This document shows, piece by piece, positions 1 to 34,669 of a stretch of 34,669 nt of DNA (positions within the stretch are counted from its first letter, which is position 1; every line of letters begins with the position of its first letter). Position numbers and translations under genes: made by a program. Where the stretch lies: IMG/VR virus record IMGVR_UViG_3300012988_000030, positions 1-34,669 of that record; one strand, 5' to 3'. Source of the DNA: a virus. The notes beneath the pieces were generated by a model. The model had not been told where the DNA came from. It was given only the letters and a program-made list of their open reading frames with translations, and ran no database searches.

Positions 1-201
1 CAATCCCTTTTTGCGCATCTTCTTCACCCAGTGGTACACACCCTGCCGGGTGATGCCAAGGTCGCGCGCAATGCGCGACAAATGCGGAGGCTCACCCAGC
101 TCGGCTGTCAGGGTGACGGCGATTTGCAGGATGGCGAGCTCGTACTTGTTCGGTGCGCCTGGCGGGCGGAACGGCTCGTAGGTGATGCCTTCGACGCTCA
201 C
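1..201 (-). CDS. Helix-turn-helix DNA-binding protein, C-terminus cut by window edge
   Basis: Reads leftward off the window from a GTG at 201; 67 codons are visible with no stop. The GTG overlaps the TGA of the upstream gene (GTGA), the usual linkage in this genome. Residues about 42-66 form a helix-turn-helix: LSRIARDLGITRQGVYHWVK, followed by basic KMRKKGL. This resembles the small HTH domains of phage terminase small subunits and resolvase or Trp-repressor-like DNA-binding proteins. The visible part is too short to choose. A regulator or a terminase small subunit are the main options. Family assignment is inference; the HTH is seen directly. Confidence 0.65.
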   Translation of the reverse strand, partial: MSVEGITYEPFRPPGAPNKYELAILQIAVTLTAELGEPPHLSRIARDLGITRQGVYHWVKKMRKKGL

Positions 202-344
202 TTGGCCGCCGGCTGCTGGATGCACCCATCCAGGCCATAACGCATCCCGCGCTCGGCGCACTTGCTGTCAAGAGCAGTGCAGCAGCCAAGCGCGGTGCAC
301 ACTACCAGCGCGATGCAGATGAAAAAGACGCTCTCGCTGTCCAT
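198..344 (-). CDS. Cysteine-rich single-pass membrane microprotein (48 aa)
   Basis: Starts at ATG 344, which overlaps the TAA of the upstream gene (TAATG), and ends in a GTGA overlap with the HTH gene. An open frame extends further upstream, but the TAATG junction supports this start. Residues about 5-25 (VFFICIALVVCTALGCCTAL) are hydrophobic and could be a membrane segment or signal anchor. The short tail carries two more cysteines (five in all). No family is recognised. Its place in a tightly packed leftward operon argues that it is translated. Confidence 0.5.
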   Translation of the reverse strand: MDSESVFFICIALVVCTALGCCTALDSKCAERGMRYGLDGCIQQPAAK

Positions 345-634
345 TAGCTTTCTCCAGAAATCCCGCGCCCGATGAACAGGTACGCGCAAACCGCCGCCTC
401 GCACGTCGGCAGCTCCGCATCGACCACCCAGAGCTCCGGCAGCGGCTTCGTCGTCTCGTGGACGAGCGACTCCCAAAACGCCAGCTCGGCGCCTCGAAGG
501 TCGACTACTCGGTCTGCTCGGGTGGACATTGGCTGTAGGCGTTCGGGCTGTTTCTCAGAGCTGGAGTTCATACCCGTCGCAGGCTCTCCCTGCGCACCAT
601 GGCGCCGAACGCATTGCAGTGTATCACACGCCAC
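344..634 (-). CDS. Hypothetical phage protein
   Basis: Open from GTG 634, which overlaps the previous stop by 11 nt, to the TAA at 344-346. An in-frame ATG at 571 (MNSSSEKQPE) would give a 75-residue product. Neither start has a good Shine-Dalgarno sequence, so the start is uncertain. The C-terminal half (AFWESLVHETTKPLPELWVV) looks like a folded, mildly amphipathic segment. No motif or family is recognised. Third from last in the leftward operon headed by the SSB-like gene. Confidence 0.45.
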   Translation of the reverse strand: MACDTLQCVRRHGAQGEPATGMNSSSEKQPERLQPMSTRADRVVDLRGAELAFWESLVHETTKPLPELWVVDAELPTCEAAVCAYLFIGRGISGES

Positions 635-815
635 TTGACGATGCCAGATCGAGGTGAGCGTAGATTCGGTGCCGAGTCTTGATGCGGTCCACCCACGTCT
701 GCTTCACGCGCACTGGTAGCTCGGGCGGCGCATCCGGCGCCACCTCGTAGACCGCGGTCGGCTCGGCTGGGAAGCCAGGCAGGCAGTCGTCGCAGTCGCA
801 GTATCGCACGTGCAT
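624..815 (-). CDS. Small hypothetical protein with N-terminal CDCDDC motif (63 aa)
   Basis: ATG 815 overlaps the stop of the upstream gene in a TGATG junction, so translation is probably coupled. The N-terminus reads MHVRYCDCDDCLPGFP: three cysteines within six residues followed by a Pro/Glu-rich stretch, which may bind a metal. The C-terminal half (VKQTWVDRIKTRHRIYAHLD) is basic and helical. Function unknown. It is one of several short Cys-containing proteins typical of phage early regions. Confidence 0.5.
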   Translation of the reverse strand: MHVRYCDCDDCLPGFPAEPTAVYEVAPDAPPELPVRVKQTWVDRIKTRHRIYAHLDLASSSGV

Positions 816-991
816 CAGCGCCACTCCGATTTCCAGAAGACCGAGAAGAACGCCGGTCGCGTGCGCCACGCATAGTGGTTGAACCTGTGAAAGTTCGCAT
901 GCTTGTCCTCCCACACACTTCTAGGATTCCGCAGCTCTGGGAAACGAGCGGCCAGCTCATCGAAGTTTTTCGGCTGAAATTCCTCGCTCAC
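815..991 (-). CDS. Small hypothetical protein (58 aa)
   Basis: GTG 991 overlaps the upstream stop (GTGA), which is preferred over the in-frame TTG at 1003. The product is rich in aromatic and charged residues (RFNHYAWRTRPAFFSVFWKSEW near the C-terminus contains three Trp and four Phe), suggesting a small compact domain or a peptide that binds a protein partner. No family is recognised. It is in the same leftward operon as the SSB-like gene. Confidence 0.5.
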   Translation of the reverse strand: MSEEFQPKNFDELAARFPELRNPRSVWEDKHANFHRFNHYAWRTRPAFFSVFWKSEWR

Positions 992-1197
992 GGTCGCCCC
1001 CAATGTCGGTGCCAGTCGAGCGAGGTGAGCTGGAGAGCCTGGAGACCAAGCTCATAGCGCTTTAGCGACAGCTCGCTTGGGTTCCGGTCCTCTAGCGCGT
1101 CAGCCAGCTCAAACGGCGCCGGTGGCGGAACGTACTTCCGCTGCACGAGTTCCTTCTCGCCCAGTCGCCAAATCCTGTCAGAACGGAATCGTGTCAT
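988..1197 (-). CDS. Hypothetical protein following the SSB-like gene (69 aa)
   Basis: Start ATG 1197 lies 20 nt inside the end of the SSB-like gene in another frame. A much longer open frame extends upstream, but it is antisense-like low-complexity Arg/Ser sequence and is not believed. The product is charged: an N-terminal basic part (MTRFRSDRIWRLGEKELVQR) followed by a helical Glu/Leu-rich part ending in WHRHWGRP. No family is recognised. The overlap with the SSB-like gene suggests coupled expression and perhaps a related role. Confidence 0.5.
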   Translation of the reverse strand: MTRFRSDRIWRLGEKELVQRKYVPPPAPFELADALEDRNPSELSLKRYELGLQALQLTSLDWHRHWGRP

Positions 1198-1522
1198 CAC
1201 CTTCAGCTCCTGTGTAATCCGTTCGCGCCGGCTCGCTCGGCGCATCCCACGAGATAATCGCCGGCCTGTCGGTCGGCTGAGCCGCCACCACCTCCTCGTT
1301 CCCGCGGACTCCCTTCCAGCGGCTATAGGGGTCAGCCTCGCGGAACTTGACCCAGTAGCTGAGCTTCTTGGCCTTCTCCTTGTCCTTGGCTTCGTACTGC
1401 GGGTTCGAGCTCGTGCTGAACTTGCCGTGCCAGAACTGTAGGGACTCGAGGTTGCATTCGGAGGCCCAGACAAAGCCTCCGCGTCGACTAATCCGCATGT
1501 CGTATCGGGGAGCACTACTCAT
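1178..1522 (-). CDS. Putative single-stranded-DNA-binding protein with SSB-type acidic C-terminal tip
   Basis: 114 residues from ATG 1522, preceded by an AGGA sequence at good spacing. The body (about 1-80) is rich in beta-type and aromatic residues and includes a Lys/Glu stretch around 45-55. A Pro/Ser/Thr/Asp linker follows, and the protein ends EGDDTIPF. Bacterial SSB proteins end in DDDIPF, the tip that docks RecO, PriA, RecQ and other repair proteins. The acidic, linker-borne IPF end is what supports the call; a classical OB-fold signature was not recognisable by eye. It heads a seven-gene leftward operon and lies next to a copy of the operator found at the ERF gene, which fits a recombination/replication role. 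Function is inference. Confidence 0.55.
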   Translation of the reverse strand: MSSAPRYDMRISRRGGFVWASECNLESLQFWHGKFSTSSNPQYEAKDKEKAKKLSYWVKFREADPYSRWKGVRGNEEVVAAQPTDRPAIISWDAPSEPARTDYTGAEGDDTIPF

Positions 1523-1528
1523 TGCCAA

Positions 1529-1587
1529 ATCCTAGCACACTTGACGCGCGTTACAATGTAATACGCAGTTCCCGTGGAGGTTTTCAA
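1529..1587 (-). promoter_or_regulatory. Leftward promoter region of the SSB-like operon
   Basis: Two overlapping candidates point left. One has TTGAAA (1587-1582), an 18-bp spacer and TATTAC (1563-1558). The other has TTGTAA (1556-1551), a 16-bp spacer and TAGGAT (1534-1529), whose start would fall on the ATG. The TTACAnTGTAA operator overlaps the -10 of the first and the -35 of the second. The GCTAGGAT around the proximal -10 is also found in the 3462 promoter cassette. Confidence 0.45.
1551..1561. promoter_or_regulatory. Operator candidate, core TTACAATGTAA
   Basis: An 11-bp palindrome around a central A, flanked by GCG and TACGC. The same core with a central C occurs at 6608-6618 between the ribbon-helix-helix gene and the ERF gene. 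Both copies sit inside promoter regions of recombination-type operons, so a shared repressor site is likely. Confidence 0.55.
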
Positions 1588-1602
1588 AATTCGTCCACCG
1601 GG
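1571..1602 (-). terminator. Stem-loop at the end of the repressor unit
   Basis: Arms 1571-1578 (CCCGTGGA) and 1594-1602 (TCCACCGGG) pair with one bulged base around a 15-nt AT-rich loop. The stop codon of the 64-residue gene lies in the loop. No U-run follows, so it is at best a weak terminator or an RNA-processing or stabilising hairpin. It also overlaps the -35 of the next leftward promoter. Confidence 0.3.
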
Positions 1603-1778
1603 CAGATACGGAGGGCGAGGCGACCGAGGTCGGTTACCTTCCAGTCCCCATCCGGAAGGTGCTGAACCCGCTCAACGGCAGACATGCCTTCGAGCGCTTT
1701 GAACTCTGCGTCCTGTGTGGCTACAAAGCCAACCGGCACGGCTAGTAGGTGGCGCTCCACCGGAGTGAGCCCTCTCAT
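1584..1778 (-). CDS. Small winged-helix-like partner of the repressor (64 aa)
   Basis: ATG 1778 overlaps the TGA of the upstream repressor gene by two bases (ATGA). A longer open frame upstream is Arg/Gly-rich and is judged a shadow. The C-terminal part, DGDWKVTDLGRLALRICP, has the beta-wing pattern (W/F-x-LTDLG) also seen in the upstream protein, suggesting that both carry related winged-helix elements. It may be a co-regulator or an anti-repressor. The pairing and the shared motif are seen directly; the role is inferred. Confidence 0.5.
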   Translation of the reverse strand: MRGLTPVERHLLAVPVGFVATQDAEFKALEGMSAVERVQHLPDGDWKVTDLGRLALRICPVDEF

Positions 1779-2176
1779 AGGTCCCAACTCGCTGGCCGGG
1801 CGACCGTTTCTTCGACCACCCGCTCTCCAGGAGCAAGCGCATGCTTTGCAAACGCGCGCGCCATTCCATTGCCGGCCGCTACTAGGGCAGGACCCGGCGG
1901 AGCAGTTCCGACCGGCTCGCCGTACAGCCCCACTATCTGCTCCCATAGCAGCAGCACCCTGAACCCAAGGTCGGTCAGCTCGAACCCCCGCCCAAGCAGT
2001 ACCGGCTCGACCAGCCCTGCTGCCTCGCACGCCCTGACGGTAACCGCCAACGACTTTGGGTAGCACCCGAGCGCCCCCATCGTCTTGCCAAGCGTCTCCC
2101 CTGGCGCATCACGCACCCGGCGCAGGAACTGGAATCCGTACTGTAACCCGAGTGTGCTACCAAGGTGATACACCAT
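1775..2176 (-). CDS. Winged-helix transcriptional regulator, probable lysogeny repressor
   Basis: 133 residues from ATG 2176. Residues about 30-75 read as a winged helix-turn-helix: a helical region (GALGCYPKSLAVTVRACEAA), then GLVEPV and a wing GFELTDLGFRVLLL, as in MarR/PadR-type DNA-binding proteins. A Pro/Ala linker and a short C-terminal segment follow. It lacks a LexA/CI-type autoprotease Ser-Lys module, so induction by RecA cleavage is not expected. It is read away from the rightward cargo operon, the usual place of a phage repressor. Its own promoter puts the start of transcription at about the ATG, as in lambda cI mRNA from PRM. The repressor role is inference. Confidence 0.6.
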   Translation of the reverse strand: MVYHLGSTLGLQYGFQFLRRVRDAPGETLGKTMGALGCYPKSLAVTVRACEAAGLVEPVLLGRGFELTDLGFRVLLLWEQIVGLYGEPVGTAPPGPALVAAGNGMARAFAKHALAPGERVVEETVARPASWDL

Positions 2177-2181
2177 GGGAT

Positions 2182-2209
2182 ATCATAGCAGTAGCGGACG
2201 CTGGGGCAA
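2182..2209 (-). promoter_or_regulatory. Repressor promoter giving a leaderless transcript
   Basis: On the minus strand TTGCCC (2209-2204), a 16-bp spacer and TATGAT (2187-2182). Only five bases (ATCCC) separate the -10 from the ATG at 2176, so transcription should begin on or next to the A of the start codon. No Shine-Dalgarno sequence can exist on such an mRNA. Confidence 0.6.
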
Positions 2210-2267
2210 GACGAAGGTAGAGGACGATGGTGATAAAGTTGCTGGTAAAAATTACGGTTGGCGGGGG

Positions 2268-2297
2268 CCCCCCTTCCCCCCCCCACCCCTCTCCCCC
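2268..2297 (-). other. G-quadruplex-prone tract
   Basis: The plus strand carries C-runs of 6, 9, 4 and 5 separated by only TT, A and TCT. The minus strand therefore has four closely spaced G-runs of four or more, which meets the usual quadruplex pattern. It lies about 60-90 bp upstream of the repressor promoter on the same strand. Confidence 0.6.
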
Positions 2298-2672
2298 TGG
2301 GGTAGGGGTCGCGCGGCCCGCGCGCAGGGCGGCACACTGCGCATCCGAGCAGGGGTGGCGCATGTTCAGGTGGGCAGGCGAGCAGGGCTATTCCTGCGGG
2401 GAATGCCGCAAGTTTCCCGTGCGCGTAGGGAGCAGGGGATTCCCGGATTCGCGAGGAGGCGGGAGAGGGGGCGCCCAACTTCTCACCTCGTTCGGCTCAC
2501 GGCTGCGCACCGAGACGCCGCTTCGCGGCGGAGAGGAGAGTCCAGTTCGAGCCCTTCCGGCTCCTCACTCTATCCTCACTGGGGTTCTGGATTGGGGATT
2601 GGGCTAAAGCTCAGCGAGCCCACGGCGCATTCCGTCGACAGCGGCAACGCCTCTTGGAGACCCCACACGAAC

Positions 2673-2686
2673 CTATCGGCCGATAG
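2673..2686. repeat. Perfect 14-bp palindrome CTATCGGCCGATAG
   Basis: Perfect inverted repeat with no spacer in the control region, about 150 bp upstream of the first rightward promoter. It could bind a dimeric regulator. Only this copy was noticed. Confidence 0.5.
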
Positions 2687-2716
2687 CCTGCTAGCGGGCC
2701 GGTCGCCTAGACTGAG

Positions 2717-2753
2717 TGTGCCAGTGCCAAAGTGTGCCAAACCGTCTGGCACA
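2717..2753. repeat. Cluster of TGTGCCA direct and inverted repeats
   Basis: TGTGCCA at 2717-2723 and 2733-2739, a shorter GTGCCA at 2724-2729, and the inverted form TGGCACA at 2747-2753. Such closely spaced copies are typical of iterons or multiple operator half-sites. They lie about 80-115 bp upstream of the rightward promoter. Confidence 0.5.
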
Positions 2754-2831
2754 GACTGGCTCACGTCAAGCGACCTGGAGGGTAACCGGCCAGCCGATTA
2801 GTTAGCCTGTGCATTATGTTGGCCGATTCGC

Positions 2832-2860
2832 TTGACGTCTGCTTTACGGTGCGCTAGATT
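2832..2860 (+). promoter_or_regulatory. Rightward promoter cassette 1
   Basis: TTGACG (2832-2837), a 17-bp spacer and TAGATT (2855-2860), a good sigma-70-type promoter. It shares CTTGACG, GCTTTAC inside the spacer and GCTAG with the promoters at 3462 and 4906. The leader ends AAGGGAACCACATG, giving a Shine-Dalgarno for the gene at 2883. Confidence 0.7.
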
Positions 2861-2882
2861 CAAGGGGTCGAAAGGGAACCAC

Positions 2883-3140
2883 ATGACCATCCGAGACGTA
2901 GCTGCAAACATCTTCCACGTAGCCTCAAACCCGTCGGGCGCTGATGTCGAGCGAGCCCGCATGTACCTGGAAACGTTCGAGTACAGCACCTGTGCGGTGT
3001 CTGCCATCATGTTCGCTCTGCGCGAGCAGTACGCCCGTCACCAAGCTCAGGGCATTGCCGCTGTCGATGGTACGCCGTGCGCTGACGCTGTGCGCGACTG
3101 CCTCATCCCGCTTGCCAACGCAGAGTCGGAGGAAGTTTGA
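2883..3140 (+). CDS. First cargo protein of the rightward operon (85 aa, unknown)
   Basis: ATG 2883 follows AAGGGAA at good spacing, 51 bp from the start of promoter cassette 1. The product is mainly helical (MTIRDVAANIFHVASNPSGA at the start, then FALREQYARHQAQG), with two Cys near the C-terminus. No family is recognised. Being the first gene after the control region, it would be among the earliest expressed in a rightward programme, where phages often place host-takeover or anti-repressor proteins. That placement argument is inference. Confidence 0.6.
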   Translation: MTIRDVAANIFHVASNPSGADVERARMYLETFEYSTCAVSAIMFALREQYARHQAQGIAAVDGTPCADAVRDCLIPLANAESEEV

Positions 3141-3451
3141 TGGCTCGCCTAGGCCGCTTCAGCGTCTCCGCCAGCCTCCTTGCCGCCTTGCTCGCGCTAC
3201 CCTGCGTGTGCCAGGCCGCCGAGTACGAGGAGCCTACCCAGCTCTGCCACGACCGCGCCGAGGGTGCCTACCAGGTCGCTGTAGCCAAGGGTGACGGGCT
3301 GCCAGACGGCGAGTATGAGAGCGAGTTCGCGTTCTGCCAGTGGGAGTCCTACCGCGCGCACCTAGTCGCGGACCCGAAGGTCTCGCTGCGCGAGCTGGTC
3401 GAGTTCGACTGGACAGATGCGGATGACGGGCGCTTGGGAGCGTGGAATTGA
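3140..3451 (+). CDS. Exported small protein with signal peptide (103 aa)
   Basis: ATG 3140 overlaps the upstream stop (TGATG). The N-terminus is a clear Sec signal peptide: basic MARLGRF, a hydrophobic core (ASLLAALLALPCVC) and a cleavage site after CQAA. The mature part is acidic with two cysteines (LCHDRAEGAY, FAFCQWESYR) that could form one disulphide in the periplasm. Cys23-type lipidation looks unlikely because the core lacks a proper lipobox. Function unknown; exported early phage proteins often modify the envelope or block superinfection. Confidence 0.6.
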   Translation: MARLGRFSVSASLLAALLALPCVCQAAEYEEPTQLCHDRAEGAYQVAVAKGDGLPDGEYESEFAFCQWESYRAHLVADPKVSLRELVEFDWTDADDGRLGAWN

Positions 3452-3461
3452 ACGAAAGCGC

Positions 3462-3490
3462 TTGACGCTCGCTTTACCACTTGCTAGGAT
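3462..3490 (+). promoter_or_regulatory. Rightward promoter cassette 2
   Basis: TTGACG (3462-3467), a 17-bp spacer and TAGGAT (3485-3490). The spacer again contains GCTTTAC at the same offset. It is followed by AGGAGAACCACCC and an ATG at 3510. It lies just after the stop codon of the exported protein. Confidence 0.7.
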
Positions 3491-3509
3491 ATGCACAGGA
3501 GAACCACCC

Positions 3510-4151
3510 ATGCGAAACCAATCCAAAGTACGCGCGTTTCTGGACGGCTTGCGAGCCGGTAAGTACACCGGTGTCGGCTGTTACCCCACGTTTTTTCTTA
3601 TGTCCGACGGCGATACGCTGTCTTACGAAGCGGCATGCGAGAACACCTGGCTCATTGCGCGCGCCACTAGGGACGGCGACAGCTCGGGATGGGCTTTCGA
3701 GGCGTTCGACGTGAACTGGGAGGACGGCGACATGGTTTGCGCCGACACCGGCAAGCGCATCGAGTCGGCCTACGCCGAACCGGAACCCATGCCTGATGCG
3801 TTTTTTGACGCATTCATCGAGTGCGCGCTTTGGTCGTCCACTGAGTGCGATGAGGATGGCAACATGGGTTCGTCGCTGGACGAGTACTACTCGGCCGACG
3901 ACATTGCGCCCGAGACCGTTGCCGCCCTGCGCAAGGATTGCGAGGACTTCTGGGAGGCGAACTACGCGCTACTCCAGCGCACGGAAGCCGATGACGAGCA
4001 GAACGGCCATGACTTTTGGCTCACTCGCAATGGCCATGGCGCGGGCTTCTGGGACCGTGGGCACGGCGAGGTAGGCGAGGAGCTGTCCAAGGCTGCCAAG
4101 GTGTACGGCTCGGTTGACTTGGTTGTGTGCGACGGGAAGGTGTGCTCGTGA
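3510..4151 (+). CDS. Conserved-type phage protein made of two acidic domains (213 aa)
   Basis: Start ATG 3510 follows AGGAG. The N-terminal part (about 1-90) contains CYPTFFLMSDGDTLSYEAAC and is like small phage proteins of unknown function. The C-terminal part (about 95-213) ends with the stretch HDFWLTRNGHGAGFWDRG (about 170-187) followed by a SKAAKVYGSVDL helix, a pattern I know from separate small phage proteins. The gene therefore looks like a fusion of two modules usually encoded apart. The whole product is strongly acidic. Function unknown. It is followed by a GTGA-coupled gene. Confidence 0.65.
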   Translation: MRNQSKVRAFLDGLRAGKYTGVGCYPTFFLMSDGDTLSYEAACENTWLIARATRDGDSSGWAFEAFDVNWEDGDMVCADTGKRIESAYAEPEPMPDAFFDAFIECALWSSTECDEDGNMGSSLDEYYSADDIAPETVAALRKDCEDFWEANYALLQRTEADDEQNGHDFWLTRNGHGAGFWDRGHGEVGEELSKAAKVYGSVDLVVCDGKVCS

Positions 4152-4645
4152 GCCGCCTAGCCGACGACATTACCGCCATTCTGGATGGCGATTGCGACGC
4201 AACGCGCGTTGCTCTGTACAACCCGCGCCGCACCGTAGCTGCCATCCGGGAGCGCCTAGCGAAGCCCGAACCGGAACCCACGGTTGACGATGCAATCCGC
4301 ATCCTAAACCGCGACTACTTCGACGACGTGCGCGGCATTGTGGAGGACTGCAAGCGAGCCATTCGCGACGGCGAGGTCTCATCGGACGATGAGTTGCGCG
4401 ACTACCTGCACGAGTCGGTCGACGGCTGCCAGCGGGTTATCCACACGTTCCAGGCTCGTTGCGGCCTGCTCTCATCTGACCATCCGGACGCTTACGAGGA
4501 TGAGACAGGCGAGCGCCCTAGCGACGTTTCAGTGCAGATGTACTGGGCGTTAATGGCAGACGTGAACGACCGCTTGGAGTCGTACGACGAATTGTGTGAA
4601 GAGCTCGAAGAGGAGCGCCAACGCGCGGAGAATGGCGATGTCTAA
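4148..4645 (+). CDS. Acidic hypothetical phage protein (165 aa)
   Basis: GTG 4148 overlaps the upstream stop. The product is highly acidic and helical. Its middle (DDELRDYLHESVDGCQRVIH) resembles a widespread phage domain of unknown function found beside the domain at the end of the upstream protein. The C-terminus (YDELCEELEEERQRAENG) is a likely coiled coil. Strong acidity is a trait of DNA-mimic and inhibitor proteins, but there is no direct evidence of such a role here. Confidence 0.6.
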   Translation: MSRLADDITAILDGDCDATRVALYNPRRTVAAIRERLAKPEPEPTVDDAIRILNRDYFDDVRGIVEDCKRAIRDGEVSSDDELRDYLHESVDGCQRVIHTFQARCGLLSSDHPDAYEDETGERPSDVSVQMYWALMADVNDRLESYDELCEELEEERQRAENGDV

Positions 4646-4931
4646 AATGGAATGGGCCGTGGGAATCGGCTCCGCCCTGCTCGCCATTCGCCTCCTGACA
4701 GCATGCGGCGCCCACGTCGAGCCCGCGCCACTGCCCGAAGGATGCGAGGTCATGGCCGACTACATCCGCGTCCAAATCTGCCCAAACCAGCCAGTGTTCG
4801 TCCAATGCCGCGACGTGGCGAGCACCAACCCAGCGCCAGGCTTGTGCGCAGGGCCAGACTGGACCGAAGGAAAGCAGGAAACTGGCAACGGCTGGTGCTG
4901 TCAGCTTGACGAGCGCTTTACGATACGCTAG
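4638..4931 (+). CDS. Putative lipoprotein (97 aa), superinfection-exclusion candidate
   Basis: ATG 4638 is chosen over ATG 4632 and 4647 because GGAG lies 7 nt upstream. The N-terminus is hydrophobic (AVGIGSALLAIRLLTAC) and ends in a proper lipobox L-T-A-C at Cys23, predicting lipid attachment and an envelope location. The mature part has six further cysteines, which may form disulphides. Phage lipoproteins of this size often act in superinfection exclusion or serum resistance; that role is inference. Its last codons overlap promoter cassette 3. Confidence 0.6.
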   Translation: MSKMEWAVGIGSALLAIRLLTACGAHVEPAPLPEGCEVMADYIRVQICPNQPVFVQCRDVASTNPAPGLCAGPDWTEGKQETGNGWCCQLDERFTIR

Positions 4932-4934
4932 GTT
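4906..4934 (+). promoter_or_regulatory. Rightward promoter cassette 3
   Basis: TTGACG (4906-4911), a 17-bp spacer and TAGGTT (4929-4934), with GCTTTAC in the spacer and GCTAG at the -10 as in the other two cassettes. It begins inside the last nine codons of the lipoprotein gene. The leader ends AAAGGAACCACAATG. Confidence 0.7.
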
Positions 4935-4954
4935 ATCAACAGAAAGGAACCACA

Positions 4955-5155
4955 ATGACGAACCAATTCACACTGGAGCACGTGAACAGTCTGCTTGGCT
5001 CGCGACAGCATCGCAAAGCGTCACCTTATCCGACTCGCGAACTGGCTGCTATGGCCGCCGCATCCGAGGCGCTGCGCTGCCGTCCGTTCGTTACCATCAA
5101 TGTCTTGGACTCGTCTGGTCGCGTGGTCGCGGAAGTGGTCGGGTGTGCCAGGTGA
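4955..5155 (+). CDS. Small hypothetical protein (66 aa)
   Basis: ATG 4955 follows AAAGGAA and promoter cassette 3. The N-terminal half is helical (FTLEHVNSLLGSRQHRKASP). The C-terminal half looks like two beta strands (FVTINVLDSSGRVVAEVVG). No family is recognised. It ends in a GTGA overlap with the next gene, the first of a run of four coupled small genes. Confidence 0.55.
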   Translation: MTNQFTLEHVNSLLGSRQHRKASPYPTRELAAMAAASEALRCRPFVTINVLDSSGRVVAEVVGCAR

Positions 5156-5328
5156 CCATCACAATGCATCGGTGCCAGTGCCACGAGCTCAGCAACGGAC
5201 TTTGCGCCGCTTGCGAGGTGCAGCTGGCCGACGAACTGCACGCGCTGGAAAACGCCCAGCACGACTACAACCGCTCTCGCTTTGACCAGCTCGTGCCGCC
5301 CAATGGCGACGAAGTGTGGCCACGATGA
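5152..5328 (+). CDS. Zinc-ribbon-like microprotein (58 aa)
   Basis: GTG 5152 overlaps the upstream stop. Residues 8-21 carry CQCH and CAAC (C8, C10, H11, C18, C21), a likely zinc site. The rest is an acidic helix (LADELHALENAQHDYNRSRF). Function unknown. It is one of about eight CxxC microproteins in the rightward operon. Confidence 0.55.
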   Translation: MTITMHRCQCHELSNGLCAACEVQLADELHALENAQHDYNRSRFDQLVPPNGDEVWPR

Positions 5329-5501
5329 GCGAGCGCTACATCGCTTCCCAGCATGCCGAGTTCGTTGACGCGCTTCGCGCATGCCTCGGACTGCAACCCC
5401 TCTACAGCGCAAGCAAGCCCACGGCCGAGTGGTGGCAGGCTGGCATGCTTCAGCACTTGGCAATGCGTGACGGTCGCAAGGCGCGAAAGGGCTCCCTATG
5501 A
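5325..5501 (+). CDS. Small hypothetical protein (58 aa)
   Basis: ATG 5325 overlaps the upstream stop (ATGA). The product is amphipathic (ASQHAEFVDALRACLG, then EWWQAGMLQHLAMR) with a basic C-terminus (RDGRKARKG). No motif is recognised. The overlap at both ends supports translation as part of the operon. Confidence 0.5.
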   Translation: MSERYIASQHAEFVDALRACLGLQPLYSASKPTAEWWQAGMLQHLAMRDGRKARKGSL

Positions 5502-5791
5502 GCAAGAACGAAGAGAGCTTTCCGACCGTCATTGGTCGAGTGCGTGACACCATGCCGTGCCCTACCCTGGCCTTCCCTGGTGGCGAAGTAACGCCACGCA
5601 AGCCCGCGGCAGCAGAGCTCGTGCTGAGCGCCAAGCAGTGGGCGACGGCGGTGCACGAGCACTTCGTTGACCACTACCAAAACATCGGACACGACAAGTC
5701 CGACCACATGCACACGGACGCGCGCATGCTGTCTTATCTGCGCCACCTGGAAGGGCGCCTGCTCGAACTGGAGGACATGTGTCGCGAGTAG
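5498..5791 (+). CDS. Hypothetical protein (97 aa)
   Basis: ATG 5498 overlaps the upstream stop (ATGA). The second half contains a His-rich helical stretch (AVHEHFVDHYQNIGHDKS, then HMHTDARMLSYLRHLEGR), which could bind metal or be a small helical bundle. No family is recognised. The next gene starts 13 nt before its end. Confidence 0.55.
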   Translation: MSKNEESFPTVIGRVRDTMPCPTLAFPGGEVTPRKPAAAELVLSAKQWATAVHEHFVDHYQNIGHDKSDHMHTDARMLSYLRHLEGRLLELEDMCRE

Positions 5792-5982
5792 TCGGCTGCT
5801 ACTGCCGCAAGCGCAGCTGCCGCCGCGGTCGACCCCTTTGCCGGCGCGCCGACAACCCTCGCAATCTGACATGCGAGTGCCCCGCAATGCACTTCCCTCA
5901 CCGCATCGGCTCGGGCCGGTGCTTGTCCAATCCGAAAGGAGTAGAGCGAATGAATGCCCTCGTGTGGGGGCCAAGCCCATAG
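5779..5982 (+). CDS. Cysteine-rich zinc-binding microprotein with HFPHRIGSGRC motif (67 aa)
   Basis: GTG 5779, 13 nt inside the previous gene in another frame. Cysteines at 7, 9, 14, 21, 32, 34 and 48, with H38 and H41, are arranged as CxC, CxC and H-x2-H-x6-C. The segment CECPAMHFPHRIGSGRC resembles a motif I have seen in small phage and bacterial proteins of unknown function (HFPHRxGSGxC). A zinc-binding fold is likely. The C-terminal tail runs into the tRNA-like element. Function unknown. Confidence 0.6.
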   Translation: MSRVVGCYCRKRSCRRGRPLCRRADNPRNLTCECPAMHFPHRIGSGRCLSNPKGVERMNALVWGPSP

Positions 5983-6061
5983 TTTCTAGGGGCCGTAGGT
6001 CGGGCGCGCTTTGGGTGGTTCCTTTCGCGCCTCACGGGTTCGATTCCCGTGGGCTCCACCG
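5967..6061 (+). other. tRNA-like element, possible attP core
   Basis: The 3' half is a typical tRNA end: T-stem ACGGG (6034-6038), loop TTCGATT, CCCGT (6046-6050), acceptor strand GGGCTCC (6051-6057) and A58-CC (6058-6060), without a full CCA. Two possible 5' acceptor strands, GGGGCCA (5967-5973) and GGGGCCG (5989-5995), each pair at six of seven positions and would give a G3:U70 pair as in tRNA-Ala and tmRNA. Between them and the T-arm only GGCGCG/CGCGCC (6003-6008/6026-6031) pairs well, and no normal D-arm is seen. It could be a degenerate tRNA or tmRNA, or an attP core copied from a host tRNA or tmRNA gene. Confidence 0.4.
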
Positions 6062-6086
6062 CGCAATTCAGCGCACGGAGATTCAC

Positions 6087-6320
6087 ATGAAACAATTTGC
6101 CATCATTGCTGCTCTGCTCGCGTTCTCTTCGGTCGCCTCAGCCGAGGAGACCAAACCGGCCAAGCCGGTTACCTGCCGAGACTTCTCGGTCGCCACCACC
6201 ACGGACGGCGCCAAGGTGGGCATCTGCGCTGCTGCCAAGGCCGGAGGCAAGCCGACGCTGCTACGCACCTTCGAGGTGGTCACCGTGGCGGGTGAGCGGC
6301 TGATGGTTGGCTTCAGGTGA
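6087..6320 (+). CDS. Exported small protein with signal peptide (77 aa)
   Basis: ATG 6087 has GGAG 8 nt upstream. The N-terminus is a good Sec signal: MKQF, a hydrophobic core (AIIAALLAFSSV) and cleavage after ASA. The mature part of about 57 residues is a beta-rich, Lys/Thr-rich sequence with two cysteines (VTCRDF, GICAAA). Function unknown; it is likely periplasmic. It lies directly after the tRNA-like element, a common insertion point for cargo genes. Confidence 0.6.
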   Translation: MKQFAIIAALLAFSSVASAEETKPAKPVTCRDFSVATTTDGAKVGICAAAKAGGKPTLLRTFEVVTVAGERLMVGFR

Positions 6321-6340
6321 GCGGCCTAGCGGAGCTCGAG

Positions 6341-6601
6341 TTACTCCGCGTCGCCCTGGCGCACTGGAGAGTCAAGCTCCGCGCCCGAGGCCACGACGTT
6401 CAGCCCGACCGCCATCAGCCCATCCTGATGGCCTTCCTGCGCGGACCCAAGGTCCCTGATGGCTTGAGCGTCGCACGCGCTCCGCAGCCAGTCGGACCAA
6501 TCGATACTTGGCCGGGCCCGTCGAGCCAGCTCGAAAGCCTGGCGGTAAACCGCTAGCCGCTCGGCCGTTTTAGTCCTGAATGTGATCGTCTTACTAGTCA
6601 T
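6341..6601 (-). CDS. Ribbon-helix-helix-type regulator candidate (86 aa)
   Basis: Read leftward from ATG 6601. Residues 1-52 fit a ribbon-helix-helix: a beta strand (KTITFRT), a first helix (AERLAVYRQAFELARRARP), a turn, and a second helix (DWSDWLRSACDAQAIRDLG). The C-terminal third is low in features. Only 3 bp separate its ATG from the GCGTTACACTGTAACAC operator, and it faces the ERF gene, as an autoregulated repressor would. It probably has a very short or no leader. A rightward frame (6317-6556) overlaps it antisense. Fold and role are inferred from pattern and position. Confidence 0.55.
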   Translation of the reverse strand: MTSKTITFRTKTAERLAVYRQAFELARRARPSIDWSDWLRSACDAQAIRDLGSAQEGHQDGLMAVGLNVVASGAELDSPVRQGDAE

Positions 6602-6604
6602 GCC

Positions 6605-6621
6605 GCGTTACACTGTAACAC
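6605..6621. promoter_or_regulatory. Operator between the RHH gene and the ERF operon
   Basis: GCGTTACACTGTAACAC contains the perfect odd palindrome GTTACA-C-TGTAAC (6607-6619). It holds TACACT rightward and TACAGT leftward, possible -10 elements on both strands, so binding here would block both directions. The 11-bp core TTACAnTGTAA recurs at 1551-1561. Confidence 0.6.
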
Positions 6622-6641
6622 ACGAAAAGGAACCTCTCCAA

Positions 6642-7364: not shown

Positions 7365-7450
7365 GCAATGTCACAACAACGGCGCTAGGACTTCTCTTGG
7401 CGTGCGCTGCAGGATTAATTCTGGGAGCCATCTTCAGGAGCGGCAAGTGA
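7361..7450 (+). CDS. Membrane microprotein (29 aa) between annealase and nuclease
   Basis: GTG 7361 overlaps the ERF stop (GTGA), and its own stop overlaps the GTG of the nuclease (GTGA). It fills the gap exactly. Translation: VSNVTTTALG, then a hydrophobic stretch LLLACAAGLILGAIF and a basic RSGK end, a single membrane span. It may exist chiefly to couple translation across the gap or may be a membrane peptide. Confidence 0.5.
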   Translation: MSNVTTTALGLLLACAAGLILGAIFRSGK

Positions 7451-8460
7451 GCTACATCAAGCAAGGCGCGCGCGTGAGCCTGCTTCCTGTGTCGCAGTTC
7501 TGTGGGCTTGCTGCTTCACTGTCCGAAGCGCACGGAGCTGGGCGTGCGGCGGCTATGTCCTCGGCATGGCACGCGCTGGCAGCCAAAGCCGACGACGCGG
7601 CCACCAAGCTCGCTCGTCTGACACCCGAGGAGCGCGCCACCATCGAGCAGTGGAAGAAGCCGTCAGACATCAAGGTTCTCGGCCAGCTCCTGACCTATGA
7701 GGAATCAGAGAAGGAGCAGCCGATTGGCCTCACCGGCGACGGTAGCTTCGCAGAGGAGGGCGAGGTGGTCACGTGCGGCACGCTCGACTTCGCTTGGATA
7801 GTCGACCACCCGGACCCTTTCATTGGGCGCGTGGCGGTCATTGGCGACCTGAAGAAAACGCGGTGGGCCAGTTCGGGCCCAGACAGCTTGCAGCTGCTCA
7901 CCTACGGCTACGCATGGGCCAAGAAGCACGGGTGCCGAGCGTTCATCACCGGCATCTGGGTCATCGAGGACGAGGAGTGGCAGTGGTCCGAGAAGGTTTA
8001 CGAGCTGGACTCGTGGACTGAGCTCGACCTGTTCCACCGCATCAAGTCGGCGGCGCTGAACACCACGGGTGAGGCCGCGTTTGGCGAGCACTGTAATAAC
8101 TGCTATGGCCGGCTTCACTGCCCAGAATTTACGCTGCCCGCTCAGTTCGCTGAGACAGTGCTGGCACCCGTGGCGGCCGACAGCGGGCTTATCCACGACG
8201 GTGAGCGCCTAGGCCAGCTGTTCGCGTTTGCCGAGCGGGTCGCTCCGCTCATCGAGAAGGCCAAGGAGATGGCCAAGGAAGCGGCTCGGCGCGGAGTGAA
8301 GGTGACGCATCCGGTGAGCGGCAAGCAGCTCGGGTTCATCAAGTGCAAGAGCCCCGAGGCGCTCAACCGCACGAAGCTGTTCGCCGCCATCCCAGAAGCC
8401 ACGAAGTTCTTGGAGCGTGGAAACGGCTACGAGCGAATGATGTGGGGGAAGGCCAAGTGA
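7447..8460 (+). CDS. PD-(D/E)XK nuclease with predicted Fe-S cluster (Cas4/AddB/RecB-type)
   Basis: 337 residues from GTG 7447. Core motifs: an early His (SSAWHAL, H42), D114 in GTLDFAW, D134-x-K136 in IGDLKKTRW, and Q149/Y153 in LQLLTYGY, the usual order in RecB-type nucleases. A cysteine near the N-terminus (C19, in SQFCGLAAS) and three late cysteines in CNNCYGRLHC (C216, C219, C225) match the four-Cys iron-sulphur arrangement of Cas4 and AddB. It most likely resects double-stranded ends to make single strands for the ERF annealase. Nuclease class is well supported; the cluster is inference. Confidence 0.8.
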   Translation: MSYIKQGARVSLLPVSQFCGLAASLSEAHGAGRAAAMSSAWHALAAKADDAATKLARLTPEERATIEQWKKPSDIKVLGQLLTYEESEKEQPIGLTGDGSFAEEGEVVTCGTLDFAWIVDHPDPFIGRVAVIGDLKKTRWASSGPDSLQLLTYGYAWAKKHGCRAFITGIWVIEDEEWQWSEKVYELDSWTELDLFHRIKSAALNTTGEAAFGEHCNNCYGRLHCPEFTLPAQFAETVLAPVAADSGLIHDGERLGQLFAFAERVAPLIEKAKEMAKEAARRGVKVTHPVSGKQLGFIKCKSPEALNRTKLFAAIPEATKFLERGNGYERMMWGKAK

Positions 8461-8726
8461 ACGACCGTATGGCTACGTACCTAGCTTGCTTTCAGCGTCT
8501 GGCGCTGGAGGCTGTATCAAACTCAGAATTCCGAAGCCGTCGAGCGCACGACGGCTCGGAAGACATGGAGGTAACAATCTCTGTGCCATGCGGCGAGCGA
8601 CTGCTTCGGCACTCGCGCATCGTTAGCAACCTGGAAGTCAGTTCACTTGTTATGTCTCCAGTAGCTATGGCGCAAATCCACTGCGACTGGGCCTTTTGCG
8701 CTCTCCGATCGGAAGGGTTGAAGTGA
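8457..8726 (+). CDS. Hypothetical protein between nuclease and helicase (89 aa)
   Basis: GTG 8457 overlaps the nuclease stop, and its own stop overlaps the GTG of the helicase. The N-terminal half is helical (RMATYLACFQRLALEAVSNS); the rest has short beta-type segments (MEVTISVPCGERLLRHSRIV). No family is recognised. The double GTGA coupling to nuclease and helicase suggests a role in the same recombination complex, but nothing in the sequence shows one. Confidence 0.55.
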   Translation: MNDRMATYLACFQRLALEAVSNSEFRSRRAHDGSEDMEVTISVPCGERLLRHSRIVSNLEVSSLVMSPVAMAQIHCDWAFCALRSEGLK

Positions 8727-10423
8727 GCCAGTCGCAGCTCATCTTCCAGCAGCCCACGCTGTCCACGCTCGACGACCGCTGGGACGGCAGTCGCTGGTAT
8801 CAACGCGAATGCTGCGAGGCGACACTCGCCGGCTTCGAGGAGTACCGCTCGCAGCTGCTGGTGATGGCCACGGGCTGCGGCAAGACGTTCGTGTTCAGCA
8901 GCCTGGCTCGACAGTGGAAAGGGCGAGTGCTGGTGCTCGCCCATCGCGAAGAGCTGGTCGAGCAGGCTCGCGCATCGCTGGAGCGCATGACGGGCGAGAC
9001 TGTCGACGTAGAGCAGGCTGGTCGTCGCGCGGCGCTCTACTCGCGGCTTGTGGTGGCGAGCGTCGACACCATCAAACAGGACAAGCGACTGGAGCGCTTC
9101 CCCGCCGACCACTTCGGCCTCGTTGTAGCCGACGAATGCCACCATTTTTTGGCCAAAACGTACAGAAAGCCGCTCGACTACTTCACTGGCGCCAAGCTGC
9201 TCGGGGTCACTGCCACGCCGGACCGTGGCGACGAAAAAGCACTCGGAAAACTGTTCGAGAACGTCGCCTACTGCTTCGACATTCAGCAGGGCATCGAGCA
9301 GGGCTACCTCGTACCGTTTGGTAATTGCCAGCACGTGGAACTCGGGGAGATTGACCTCGATGGAGTTGATACGGTAGCTGGCGACTTCGCCAAGGGCCAG
9401 CTCGACGAGGTGATGCTGCGCGCGGTTGAGGGCATTGTAAAGAAGACGCTGGAGCTGGAGCCCAACCGACAGGCGGTGTGCTTCTTTCCCGGTGTGAAGT
9501 CTGCTGAATACGCGGCTGAGCGCTTCAATGCCCTGAAGTCGTTCTCCGCCGGGTTCATCAGCGGTGAGACATTGCCGCATGACCGCAAGCGCATCGTTGC
9601 TGAGTTCAGAGAGGGGCGCATTCAGTTCCTGTGCAACTGCATGGTGGCTACCGAAGGCTTTGACGCCCCATCAGCGAGCTGCATCGTTCAGGCTCGCCCC
9701 ACCAAGTCACGCGGGCTCTACGCGCAGATGGTGGGGCGAGGCACCCGTGTGCTCGGTGGGCTCGTGGAGGCCATCCCTGGGCGCGAAGGCGCTGCAGAAC
9801 GCCGCGCGCTCATCGCCGGCAGCCGAAAGCCGGACCTTGTGGTGCTCGACTTCGTGGGCAACTCATCGAAGCACGCGCTGGTCACGCCCGAGGACTTGCT
9901 GGGTGGCGACTACTCTGACGAGGAGGTCGAGCTCGCCAAGAAGAAGGCTAAGCAGGACAAGGGTGCCAACCCGCAGCAGATGCTGGCCGAGGCCCGCAAG
10001 GAGCTCCAGCGCATCGCCGCCGCCATCAGCAGCCGCGTTGCTGCCCAGGCGCGCAGCTTCAACCCCTTCGCCGTGCTCGAGCTGGACACGACCAGCACCA
10101 CGCGAGACGATATGCGCTGGGGCCGCCAGCCGCCTACGCCGCGCCAGCTCGAGGCGCTGGCCAAGATGAAGCTGCCGAAGGAGGTGCTCGGGCAGCTGAG
10201 CAAGCGCCAGGCAAGCAAGCTGCTCGAGGAGCGCGCGCGGCGCCACGAGGCAGGACTCGCGACGTACGCGCAGGTAGGGCATCTCACCAAGTTCGGGGTG
10301 GATGCGCGCAACGTCACCTTCGAGCAGGCGGGCAAGGCGCTTACTTACATCGCTGGGTGTGGTTGGAAACCGAAGAACGTCGACATGGCAAAGCTCAAGC
10401 TCATGATTGAAGAGAACCCGTGA
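8723..10423 (+). CDS. Superfamily 2 DEAD/DEAH-type helicase
   Basis: 566 residues from GTG 8723. Motif Q-like RWYQRECCE precedes the Walker A MATGCGKT (48-55). Motif Ia is VLAHREELVEQA, Walker B is DECH (127-130), and motif III is TATP (163-166). The second RecA-like domain has AVCFFPGVKSAEYAAER, motif V TEGFDAPSASCIVQARPT, and motif VI QMVGRGTR (335-342). The layout resembles UvsW/RadD and type III restriction-type helicases acting on branched DNA or R-loops. The C-terminal 170 residues are helical and Lys-rich, with no known domain recognised. Likely role: remodelling recombination or replication intermediates. Confidence 0.9.
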   Translation: MSQSQLIFQQPTLSTLDDRWDGSRWYQRECCEATLAGFEEYRSQLLVMATGCGKTFVFSSLARQWKGRVLVLAHREELVEQARASLERMTGETVDVEQAGRRAALYSRLVVASVDTIKQDKRLERFPADHFGLVVADECHHFLAKTYRKPLDYFTGAKLLGVTATPDRGDEKALGKLFENVAYCFDIQQGIEQGYLVPFGNCQHVELGEIDLDGVDTVAGDFAKGQLDEVMLRAVEGIVKKTLELEPNRQAVCFFPGVKSAEYAAERFNALKSFSAGFISGETLPHDRKRIVAEFREGRIQFLCNCMVATEGFDAPSASCIVQARPTKSRGLYAQMVGRGTRVLGGLVEAIPGREGAAERRALIAGSRKPDLVVLDFVGNSSKHALVTPEDLLGGDYSDEEVELAKKKAKQDKGANPQQMLAEARKELQRIAAAISSRVAAQARSFNPFAVLELDTTSTTRDDMRWGRQPPTPRQLEALAKMKLPKEVLGQLSKRQASKLLEERARRHEAGLATYAQVGHLTKFGVDARNVTFEQAGKALTYIAGCGWKPKNVDMAKLKLMIEENP

Positions 10424-10590: not shown

Positions 10591-10703
10591 GGCCGCCAGT
10601 CCTCCTATGCTTTGTTGCCGTGTTCGCCGTCTCTCTATCGACCGGGCACGATTGGTTCGCGCTGTCAGCATTCATTTGCCTTTTTATGGAGTGCTGTTCG
10701 TGA
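10587..10703 (+). CDS. Membrane microprotein (38 aa)
   Basis: GTG 10587 and a stop that overlaps the next GTG. The product is almost wholly hydrophobic: PPVLLCFVAVFAVSLSTG, then FALSAFICLFMECCS. That would form one long or two short membrane spans. No family is recognised. It is the second membrane microprotein embedded in the recombination block. Confidence 0.45.
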   Translation: MRPPVLLCFVAVFAVSLSTGHDWFALSAFICLFMECCS

Positions 10704-11008
10704 GGCCCGGCTGGACAGGCGCGCTCGAGTCCACCACCGAGCGCTACGGTATGGGCGCAGTGGAGCTGCTCGAGAAGCGCCGCTGGCGGCGCACGGTGCA
10801 AGCCCGCCAGTACTTCTGGCTGTTGCTGCACGACACCTACGGCTGGAGCTACCCGGAGATTGCCAGGTACACTGGCGACTACAACCACACCACCGTGCTC
10901 TCGGGCGTCAGGAAGGCCAGGAAGCGTGAAGCGGAGTCCAATGCCGCGCCGAGCGGCGTACATGAAACGGTCCAAGTTCAAGAGGCGTACGATGACCAAA
11001 CAGGCTGA
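10700..11008 (+). CDS. DnaA domain IV-like DNA-binding protein (102 aa)
   Basis: GTG 10700, coupled by GTGA. Residues about 34-75 match the DnaA C-terminal DNA-binding domain: RQYFWLLLHDTYGWSYPEIA, then RYTGDYNHTTVLSGVRKARK, which corresponds to the DnaA signature GRDHTTVLHAVRK. The AAA+ ATPase domain is absent. DnaA domain IV alone binds 9-mer DnaA boxes, so this protein could compete for host or phage origins, recruit a helicase to the phage origin, or act as a regulator. Domain call is strong; role is inference. Confidence 0.75.
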   Translation: MRPGWTGALESTTERYGMGAVELLEKRRWRRTVQARQYFWLLLHDTYGWSYPEIARYTGDYNHTTVLSGVRKARKREAESNAAPSGVHETVQVQEAYDDQTG

Positions 11009-17813: not shown

Positions 17814-18284
17814 ATGGATGAGAAGACGATTGCACGTTTCTGGGCCAAGGTCGACAAGCGCGGTTCTGATGAGTGTTGGGAGTGGACAGGCGCTCGCAAC
17901 GAAGCGCGTGGCGGCTATGGCGCCATGGGTCGAAACGTAATGGCCCACAGGGCCAGCTGGGAAATCCATAACCGCCAGCTGACCTCTGGCGAATGCGTGC
18001 TGCATCGGTGCGACAACCCGCCCTGCTGCAACCCGGCACATCTGTTCGTCGGCACCAGAACCGACAACCACCTGGACAAGATGGCGAAGGGCAGAAACAA
18101 GCCTCCGCCGCGCCACCTTGGCAATACTCACCCCATGGCGAAGCTCACCGAGGAATCGATCCCGCGAATTCGCGCGGCGCTTGCGTCCGGCATCGGGAAA
18201 CAGAAGGTCGCCGCCGCTTTCGGTGTCAGCAAAAAAACGGTGCTGAACATCGCGGCTGGCAGAATATGGCGCCACGTCCCATGA
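17814..18284 (+). CDS. HNH endonuclease with C-terminal HTH (homing-type)
   Basis: 156 residues from ATG 17814 with GAGGAG 8 nt upstream. The N-terminal CWEWTGARNEARGGYGAM, H45 (MAHRASWE), and VLHRCDNPPCCNPAHL (H64, C66, N73, H76) form the HNH_3-type nuclease common in free-standing phage homing endonucleases. Residues about 111-154 (SIPRIRAALASGIGKQKVAA, GVSKKTVLNIAAGR) are a helix-turn-helix for target recognition. It lies on the strand opposite to all its late-gene neighbours, between the endolysin and a coiled-coil gene, as a mobile insertion would. Its stop is 1 bp from that of the endolysin. Confidence 0.88.
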   Translation: MDEKTIARFWAKVDKRGSDECWEWTGARNEARGGYGAMGRNVMAHRASWEIHNRQLTSGECVLHRCDNPPCCNPAHLFVGTRTDNHLDKMAKGRNKPPPRHLGNTHPMAKLTEESIPRIRAALASGIGKQKVAAAFGVSKKTVLNIAAGRIWRHVP

Positions 18285-31899: not shown

Positions 31900-32645
31900 C
31901 GCCTTCGGTACCTATTCCAACCCGTCATGTGGTCAATTGTGGCCTGCATGTTGACGCTCTGCTTGGAGTAGCCTTTGCAGATGTCCTTCTTCGCACCGGC
32001 AAGCTGGTCCATGTAGCCCACGCGCTCGAGCCCCATCGAGTTGTCGAGCGCCAGGCGCCCCGCCAGCGCGTAGATGAAGTACTCGTCCCAGTAACGCTCG
32101 AACGGCAGCGTGTTGTTGCCGTCAGTCACGTCCGGTCGCAGCTGGTGGTACTGGAACCGAATCCGCCCGCCGTCCTCCGAAGCGCTCGGCGTCGGCCAAA
32201 GGTAGAGCGTCGACTGCGGAGCGTTGCGCGCGAAGTAGTACATGGTCGGCCGCGACTGCGCGGACTTCGAGCTCATGTTCTGGTAGGTGTCCCGGTCCAT
32301 TTTGATGACGACAGTTTCACTGGACGCCTGGAACGGCACCTGGCTCACCGTCGGATCGATGTAGGCGCCGTTTCCCACGCAGTCGATGACGTTCTCCGGC
32401 AGCGTGTAGAGGTTCTGCGCTTCAGCCAGCACCACGTAGCCGGGCTGCACCGCGCGCATGGCGATACCCTCGGCCTCAAGCGCCGTCACGATGACACTGA
32501 GCAGTTGGCGCGCCACGCGAGCCTGTACAGTCGTCGGCGACTGCTGGACGTTCAGTACGCCAGCGCGGCGGTACGCCATGGCCACGATTTCATCTATCGT
32601 GGGTACGTAAGTGCTGGTCGCTGCTTCGGTCTGTGCGAGAGGCAT
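31896..32645 (-). CDS. P22 gp4-like head-to-tail adaptor
   Basis: 249 residues from ATG 32645. The N-terminal helices (TIDEIVAMAYRRAGVLNV, then ARQLLSVIVTALEAEGIAM), the central LPENVIDCVGNGAYI and the RPTMYYFARNAPQSTLYLWP segment fit the P22 gp4 / tail adaptor group (P22 gp4 has 166 aa, so this is longer). It would bind below the portal and receive the gp10-like hub. The C-terminal helical part (RLALDNSMGLERVGYMDQLA) is typical too. The only Shine-Dalgarno (GGAG) lies in the arm of a stem-loop that ends next to the ATG. Confidence 0.65.
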   Translation of the reverse strand: MPLAQTEAATSTYVPTIDEIVAMAYRRAGVLNVQQSPTTVQARVARQLLSVIVTALEAEGIAMRAVQPGYVVLAEAQNLYTLPENVIDCVGNGAYIDPTVSQVPFQASSETVVIKMDRDTYQNMSSKSAQSRPTMYYFARNAPQSTLYLWPTPSASEDGGRIRFQYHQLRPDVTDGNNTLPFERYWDEYFIYALAGRLALDNSMGLERVGYMDQLAGAKKDICKGYSKQSVNMQATIDHMTGWNRYRRR

Positions 32646-32680
32646 TGGGCTCCAGGGGCGCCAGTCCCAGCTGGAGCCCA
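32646..32680 (-). promoter_or_regulatory. Stem-loop hiding the Shine-Dalgarno of the gp4-like gene
   Basis: Perfect 10-bp arms TGGGCTCCAG (32646-32655) and CTGGAGCCCA (32671-32680) around a 15-nt GC-rich loop fill the space between two late genes. In the leftward mRNA the 3' arm contains GGAG four nucleotides before the ATG at 32645. No U-run follows, so a terminator is unlikely; translational control is the better reading. Confidence 0.6.
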
Positions 32681-32687
32681 GCTTCTG

Positions 32688-33650: not shown

Positions 33651-33660
33651 GGTTCACTCC

Positions 33661-34578: not shown

Positions 34579-34581
34579 GGC

Positions 34582-34669
34582 TCAATTCTCCGGGGTTGGC
34601 GCGACGCGCCGAGGTCGTGGGGGTTGCTTGCCTGCCGGTGCGGGACTTTCGTCCGGGGCCGGTTTCTCC
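34582..34669 (-). CDS. C-terminal end of an upstream head gene (partial)
   Basis: The last 28 codons of a gene reading in from the right edge, stop TGA at 34584-34582. The visible part is Pro/Arg/Lys-rich and disordered (EKPAPDESPAPAGKQPPRPR, then VAPTPEN). It lies just upstream of the major capsid gene, where scaffold or head-maturation proteins are usual. Nothing more can be said. Confidence 0.45.
   Translation of the reverse strand, partial: EKPAPDESPAPAGKQPPRPRRVAPTPEN

Follow-up and report, generated by a model that had tools for sequence, protein, structure and literature searches.

The window analyzed here is the whole 34,669-nucleotide stretch of the IMG/VR virus record IMGVR_UViG_3300012988_000030, and the element in question is a short palindrome, TTACAnTGTAA, which recurs at putative promoters of this phage and its relatives and most likely marks a repressor circuit. 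The first-pass annotation had placed two exact copies in the window, each in a promoter region, and the whole-window scan confirmed both: one at 1551–1561 (TTACAATGTAA, read as TTACATTGTAA on the minus strand) and the other at 6608–6618 (TTACACTGTAA), with no further TTACNNNGTAA in the window. Only 0.001–0.002 exact copies per window were expected under Markov models of order 1–3. The GC content of the window is 0.629; thus, the AT-rich palindrome stands out.

The window covers part of a genome of about 45.66 kb, circular or circularly permuted, which is completed by another contig from this phage (G4, or L019; 15,975 bp). This contig matches window positions 1–2796 (99.96%) and 32480–34669 (100%), both in reverse orientation, and the two ends of the window correspond to the two ends of G4. 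The approximately 11 kb outside the window contain two of the operator sites described below, together with RusA, the terminase, and the portal region. G4 and contigs of two related phages, G1 (44,269 bp) and G2 (16,814 bp), were recovered by scans with two proteins of the window: the product of a ribbon-helix-helix (RHH)-like gene at 6341–6601, which is 80% identical in G1 and 85% identical in G2, and the protein encoded at 1178–1522. The fragments L026, L029, L032, and L033 were recovered by searches with the terminase and a winged-helix protein.

Distribution of the operator in the phage lineage

A motif matrix was built from 18 sites at orthologous places in seven phage contigs of the lineage. 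In this matrix, the core sits within a longer palindrome of approximately GYGTR TTRCA n TGTAA YGCRYG (23 columns, 27.9 bits). The operator places were designated S1 to S5, of which S1–S4 supplied the 18 sites; together they take up no more than about 7.6 kb of the circle, and the operator places are kept in G1, G2, G4, L026, L029, and L032. Three of them fall inside the window:

1551–1561, minus strand: S1 operator core, with palindrome flanks at about 1545–1567, heading the leftward operon that starts at 1522
6608–6618, no strand assigned: S2 operator core, TTACACTGTAA (the 13-mer at 6607–6619 is GTTACACTGTAAC), separating the RHH-like gene from the ERF gene
614–624, minus strand: S5, a weak fifth operator, CGTGTG-ATACACTGCAA-TGCGTT, scoring 19.8 bits with the position weight matrix (PWM), around the extended -10 TGATACACT inside the S1 operon

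Counterparts of S1 were located at 3968 in G1 and, in a degenerate form (TTACGTTGCAA), at 6695 in G2, the site at 1237 in G4 being that of the same phage. S2 has counterparts at 43927 in G1 and 1208 in G2, and S5 at 705 in L026, 5378 in G1, and 8180 in G2. The S3 site stands directly before the gene of a small CxxC protein in G4 (3375), G1 (7024), G2 (9324), and L029 (580); the gene that follows it is another one in L032 (915) and L026 (1789). The S4 site, found at 3753 in G4, 7428 in G1, 9732 in G2, 2186 in L026, 960 in L029, and 1298 in L032, heads a late operon that opens with MP-[VI]-RD, followed by a RusA-like resolvase (phrog_1682, 2.7e-13), the terminase (phrog_979, 4.6e-29), and structural genes. 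In the phage of the window, S3 and S4 lie 577 and 955 bp past the left end, so the first-pass annotation could not have seen them. Its statement that there was no third copy holds for exact copies within the window, but not for the degenerate S5 or for the two sites beyond the left end. Both of the copies it had listed are conserved in the relatives, whereas its description of a two-locus recombination regulon proved too narrow, as the same operator heads the late RusA-terminase-structural operon and the CxxC gene.

A rescan with the matrix gave matches only at S1–S5, apart from marginal ones of 8–9 bits; simulated windows contained 0.25 PWM matches above 8 bits each. A match with two mismatches at 24535 was set aside, as it falls in a predicted open reading frame (ORF) and did not score above 8 bits with the PWM. 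When 2.9 million viral contigs of IMG/VR were scanned with a 20-bp pattern, 17 stretches were obtained. The matches outside the lineage were rejected as single sites with no genes in common with it, most of them belonging to one family of contigs with about 39% GC in which the match falls in one repeated sequence context; the full operator accompanied by related genes was found only in this lineage. No relatives were detected in 84,980 bacterial and archaeal genomes, in which hosts and prophages were also searched for and none found, and a search of IMG/VR found no close ERF relatives. The nearest terminases in phage records, those of Roseobacter, Puniceispirillum, and Pelagibacter phages, are only about 30% identical. 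Judging from the sequence comparisons, the conserved, phage-wide operator set is genuine.

The operators were retained even where their surroundings changed. The S3–S4 interval has been replaced in L026 with both operators kept, and in L026 and L032 the S3 operator is kept although the gene behind it differs. In L033, the S3 and S4 operators are both gone, though much of the interval is retained, and GCTCGTCAAAC is present at both places (TCGTCAAACGA at S3 and TCGTCAAACAA at S4). The two operators may have been exchanged jointly in this phage; the observation is only suggestive, coming from two sites on one contig of 6.4 kb, and GCTCGTCAAAC is also the reverse of TTGACGAGC, a -35-like string. 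If true, the double site loss would show, as is seldom possible, several operators of one set changing in concert. The conserved S3–S4 interval itself (3390–3750 in L019, 600–960 in L033, and orthologues), which is missing in L026, carries ATCAAAACGGCCTCATTTCTCAT and CCTACATGTAGGTAACCACTG and is possibly an origin or a packaging site; a search of this interval against Rfam returned no family above the gathering score.

Predicted promoters and transcription units at the operator sites

The predicted promoter elements and the genes of the operons headed by S1 and S2 are as follows:

1529–1556, minus strand: S1 promoter, with the -35 TTGTAA (1556–1551, within the operator), a 16-nt spacer, and the -10 TAGGAT (1534–1529), predicted from the sequence and the alignment of orthologous sites
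1178–1522, minus strand: first gene of the S1 operon, previously described as SSB-like
6612–6620, minus strand: predicted extended -10 of the RHH-like gene, TGTTACAGT, with the -10 TACAGT (6617–6612), embedded in the S2 operator
6625–6632, plus strand: Shine-Dalgarno sequence of the ERF gene, AAAAGGAA
6642–7364, plus strand: ERF-family single-stranded DNA annealing protein (PF04404, 2.8e-10; phrog_2324, 4.5e-25)
7447–8460, plus strand: exonuclease-like protein (phrog_69, 1.5e-8)
8723–10423, plus strand: SF2 helicase (ResIII, 5e-29)
10700–11008, plus strand: DnaA domain-IV-like DNA-binding protein (PF08299, 4e-12), downstream in the ERF operon
2832–2860, 3462–3490, and 4906–4934, plus strand: putative early promoters without the operator, of the type TTGACG-N17-TAGRTT (TTGACG-N17-TAGATT at 2832)

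As had been proposed, the operator is common to both loci of the window and overlies promoter-like elements in each: the copy at 1551 lies over the -35 of the leftward operon, and the copy at 6608 over the extended -10 before the ATG of the 6601–6341 gene. At S1, the right operator arm coincides with the -35 TTGTAA and is followed, after 16–17 nt, by TAGGAT, TAAGGT, or TAGGGT. At S4, the operator lies over a -35-like TTGCAn (TTTACA in G2), 16–17 nt ahead of TACAAT, TACAGT, or TAG-type -10s, and at S2 (in the direction of the RHH-like gene) and S3 an extended -10, TGTTACAnT, is contained within it. The distance from the -10 to the ATG is 5–10 nt at S1 in the window, at S2 for the RHH-like gene, and at S4, and 7 nt at S3 in G4 and G2. 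These short distances suggest leaderless or nearly leaderless mRNAs, and translation of the first gene of the S1 operon from the ATG at 1522 is probably leaderless. Among the genes at sites S1–S4, only the ERF gene has an obvious Shine-Dalgarno sequence. Relative to the presumed transcription starts, the operator center is positioned at about -34 in S1, -29 in S4, and -11 in S2 and S3; this variation would fit steric repression better than activation.

We propose that TTACAnTGTAA forms the core of a palindromic operator of about 21–23 bp for a phage-encoded repressor. Its targets would number four transcription units or more: the S1 operon, the S2 divergent pair formed by the RHH-like gene and the ERF-exonuclease-helicase operon, the CxxC gene at S3, and the late operon at S4. 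A promoter internal to the S1 operon, at the weak site S5, is a potential fifth. A bound repressor would keep RNA polymerase out, with the extended -10 TGTTACAnT covered at S2, S3, and S5 and the -35 at S1 and S4. If the most likely candidate, the 86-aa RHH-like product, is the repressor, it would act at S2 on the almost leaderless gene that encodes it. The operator-free early promoters at 2832, 3462, and 4906 would fire first. The latter share the -35 TTGACG, the spacer sequence GCTTTAC, and GCTAG at the -10, and the shared spacer may be the site of another regulator.

The profile matches listed above support the earlier assignment of the ERF operon to an annealase, a nuclease, and a helicase. 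The name "SSB-like" for the 1178–1522 protein was not sustained. Neither profile nor fold searches gave an SSB match, and the AlphaFold2 model consists of a hairpin, two helices, a second hairpin, and a disordered tail, with a predicted local distance difference test (pLDDT) value of about 80 over residues 1–80 and no OB barrel. The tail, including its IPF motif, is not conserved in orthologues (DDTIPF in the window, GEIPNW in G1, DDDFAKGW in G2).

Several neighboring features were also recorded. The DnaA domain-IV-like protein is stand-alone and 82% identical in G1. At 5989–6061, there is a tRNA-like element ending in GGTTCGATTCCCGTGGGCTCCACC, and the surrounding stretch is 88% identical in G1; ARAGORN made no call for this element, and a weak tmRNA match (22 bits) was below the gathering score. 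It could be a tRNA remnant or an attachment site. An HNH endonuclease gene with a resolvase-type helix-turn-helix (HTH) domain is located at 17814–18284 on the plus strand, with the adjacent late genes on the minus strand, and looks like a homing insertion.

Candidate regulators

Two genes of the regulon may encode the repressor, and one of them overlaps an antisense frame:

6341–6601, minus strand: RHH-like protein of 86 aa, with its ATG 6 bp from the S2 operator; first repressor candidate
6317–6556, plus strand: 79-aa ORF overlapping the RHH-like gene in antisense
1–201, minus strand: 5' part of the gene for a LexA-DNA-binding-like winged-helix protein; the gene stands late in the S1 operon, and its remainder is outside the window (2597–2887 in G4)

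In the first 50 codons of the RHH-like ORF, 15–19 silent changes were counted versus 3–7 amino-acid changes; therefore, 6341–6601 is a real gene. It adjoins S2 in all three phages that cover this site, and the first 50 residues of its product are 86–94% identical, compared with 52–62% for the "SSB-like" neighbor. In the antisense pair, constraint falls on the RHH-like frame over its first 50 codons and on the opposite frame over the rest, as observed in three phages. The AlphaFold2 model of the RHH-like protein contains two confident helices (residues 13–29 and 35–55, pLDDT about 90) after a KTITFRT stretch; residues 1–7 have a pLDDT below 50, and the monomer shows no strand. The strand-helix-helix layout suggested by these features plausibly fits an RHH protein, and the weak second match in the PDB, 3no7, is a centromere-binding ParB, itself a ribbon-helix-helix protein. 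On these grounds, the 86-aa product is regarded as the first candidate, with about an even chance of being the repressor. A 43% match to the RHH-like protein in L005/G3 was rejected as a chance local match, since it belongs to a different gene and both the motif and the synteny are absent.

A number of results weigh against this assignment. The RHH identity proposed by the first-pass annotation is plausible from the layout of the model, but profiles gave no match: the 6341–6601 product had no Pfam or NCBIfam RHH hit, the PF01402 search of the window was empty, and so was a PDB profile search with the protein. Foldseek gave no significant match with the model, the best RHH-type one, 3no7, included. 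Furthermore, no phage was found in which the operator and one candidate had changed together with the other candidate kept, and the winged-helix gene is likewise in the regulon and likewise conserved.

The second candidate is this winged-helix protein, which would act as a LexA-DNA-binding-domain-like repressor that lacks a peptidase domain and controls its own gene from S1 and S5. Its gene lies in the S1/S5 operon, and the protein occurs alongside the operator in G1, G2, G4, L026, and the L027/L032 contig. The best match of the G1 copy, albeit a weak one, is the LexA DNA-binding domain (E 0.02), and the G4 copy matches other winged-helix families at 4e-5 to 1e-3. However, no match reaches the LexA cut-off (best 17.5 bits versus 23.7), no S24 domain is present, other HTH families, among them a terminase one, reach comparable scores, and the gene is not adjacent to S2. 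We consider this protein possible as the repressor, though clearly less likely than the RHH-like product. The operator core bears on it as well, as it equals the LexA box TTAC-N3-GTAA of Bdellovibrio bacteriovorus, bound by LexA in that species (PMC8565304, citing Campoy 2005); this box may not be that of the phage's host.

The same likeness raises the prospect that the operators are bound by the host LexA or another host repressor, which would make the recombination genes and the late genes of the phage dependent on the SOS state of its host. LexA motifs vary widely between taxa, and the site loss in L033 would be explicable as a host change. Nevertheless, the phage operator is longer than the box, with conserved GYGTR/YGCRYG flanks reaching past its 11 bp and A and T beside the center, and the IMG/VR scan confined the full operator with related genes to this lineage. 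The genome search returned no relatives, and control by a host protein appears improbable. Least probable is a palindrome that serves as a promoter element only, formed by two face-to-face extended -10 boxes (TGTTACAnTGTAACA) with no protein operator. TACAnT does fit a -10 hexamer on both strands, and S2 is divergent, but S1 and S4 have a separate -10 with the palindrome over the -35, the conserved flanks and symmetry exceed promoter needs, and the palindrome is absent from the other promoters of the phage.

Relation to known repressor circuits

The CI/Cro operators of lambda and the gp71 protein of mycobacteriophage L5 with its stoperators are multi-operator phage repressor circuits. The present system resembles them in that one short operator is repeated at several promoters of one phage, over the -10 or the -35. 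It differs in its operator sequence, in having the late operon among the targets, and in the absence of a CI-like or L5-gp71-like gene among the proteins scanned. The earlier claim that the small regulator is distinct from the main repressor is unsupported: these proteins, which cover part of the ORFs, included no product of a CI-like, S24, or integrase gene. Thus, the kind of circuit is already known, while this instance and its layout are new.

A further comparison concerns MatP of Photorhabdus thracensis, which binds GTTACNNNGTAAC, its dimer placing a helix and a beta strand in the major groove (PMC8669397). The site tested in that study, GTTACAGTGTAAC, is identical to the S2 13-mer at window positions 6607–6619 read on the other strand, so a protein of such a type can bind this DNA. 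In contrast to the proposed repressor, MatP serves to organize the terminus of the enterobacterial chromosome rather than to repress promoters, and no sequence relation to the 86-aa protein is shown.

Taken as a whole, the data are best explained by a phage-wide set of repressor operators with the 86-aa RHH-like product as the most likely repressor, an account that we hold with roughly balanced confidence. It is doubtful whether its fullest form applies, in which an RHH protein rather than a CI-type one would be the master repressor of the whole phage, gating recombination, its own gene, and the late packaging and structural operon through a palindrome in which the -10 or -35 of leaderless or nearly leaderless genes is contained, with the S3 and S4 operators of L033 exchanged together. 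The analysis provides a control map, open to direct testing, for a lineage of uncultured soil phages without a close relative in the phage and genome collections searched, in which DNA recombination genes and the late operon appear to be tied to one operator and two unrelated candidate regulators stand side by side.

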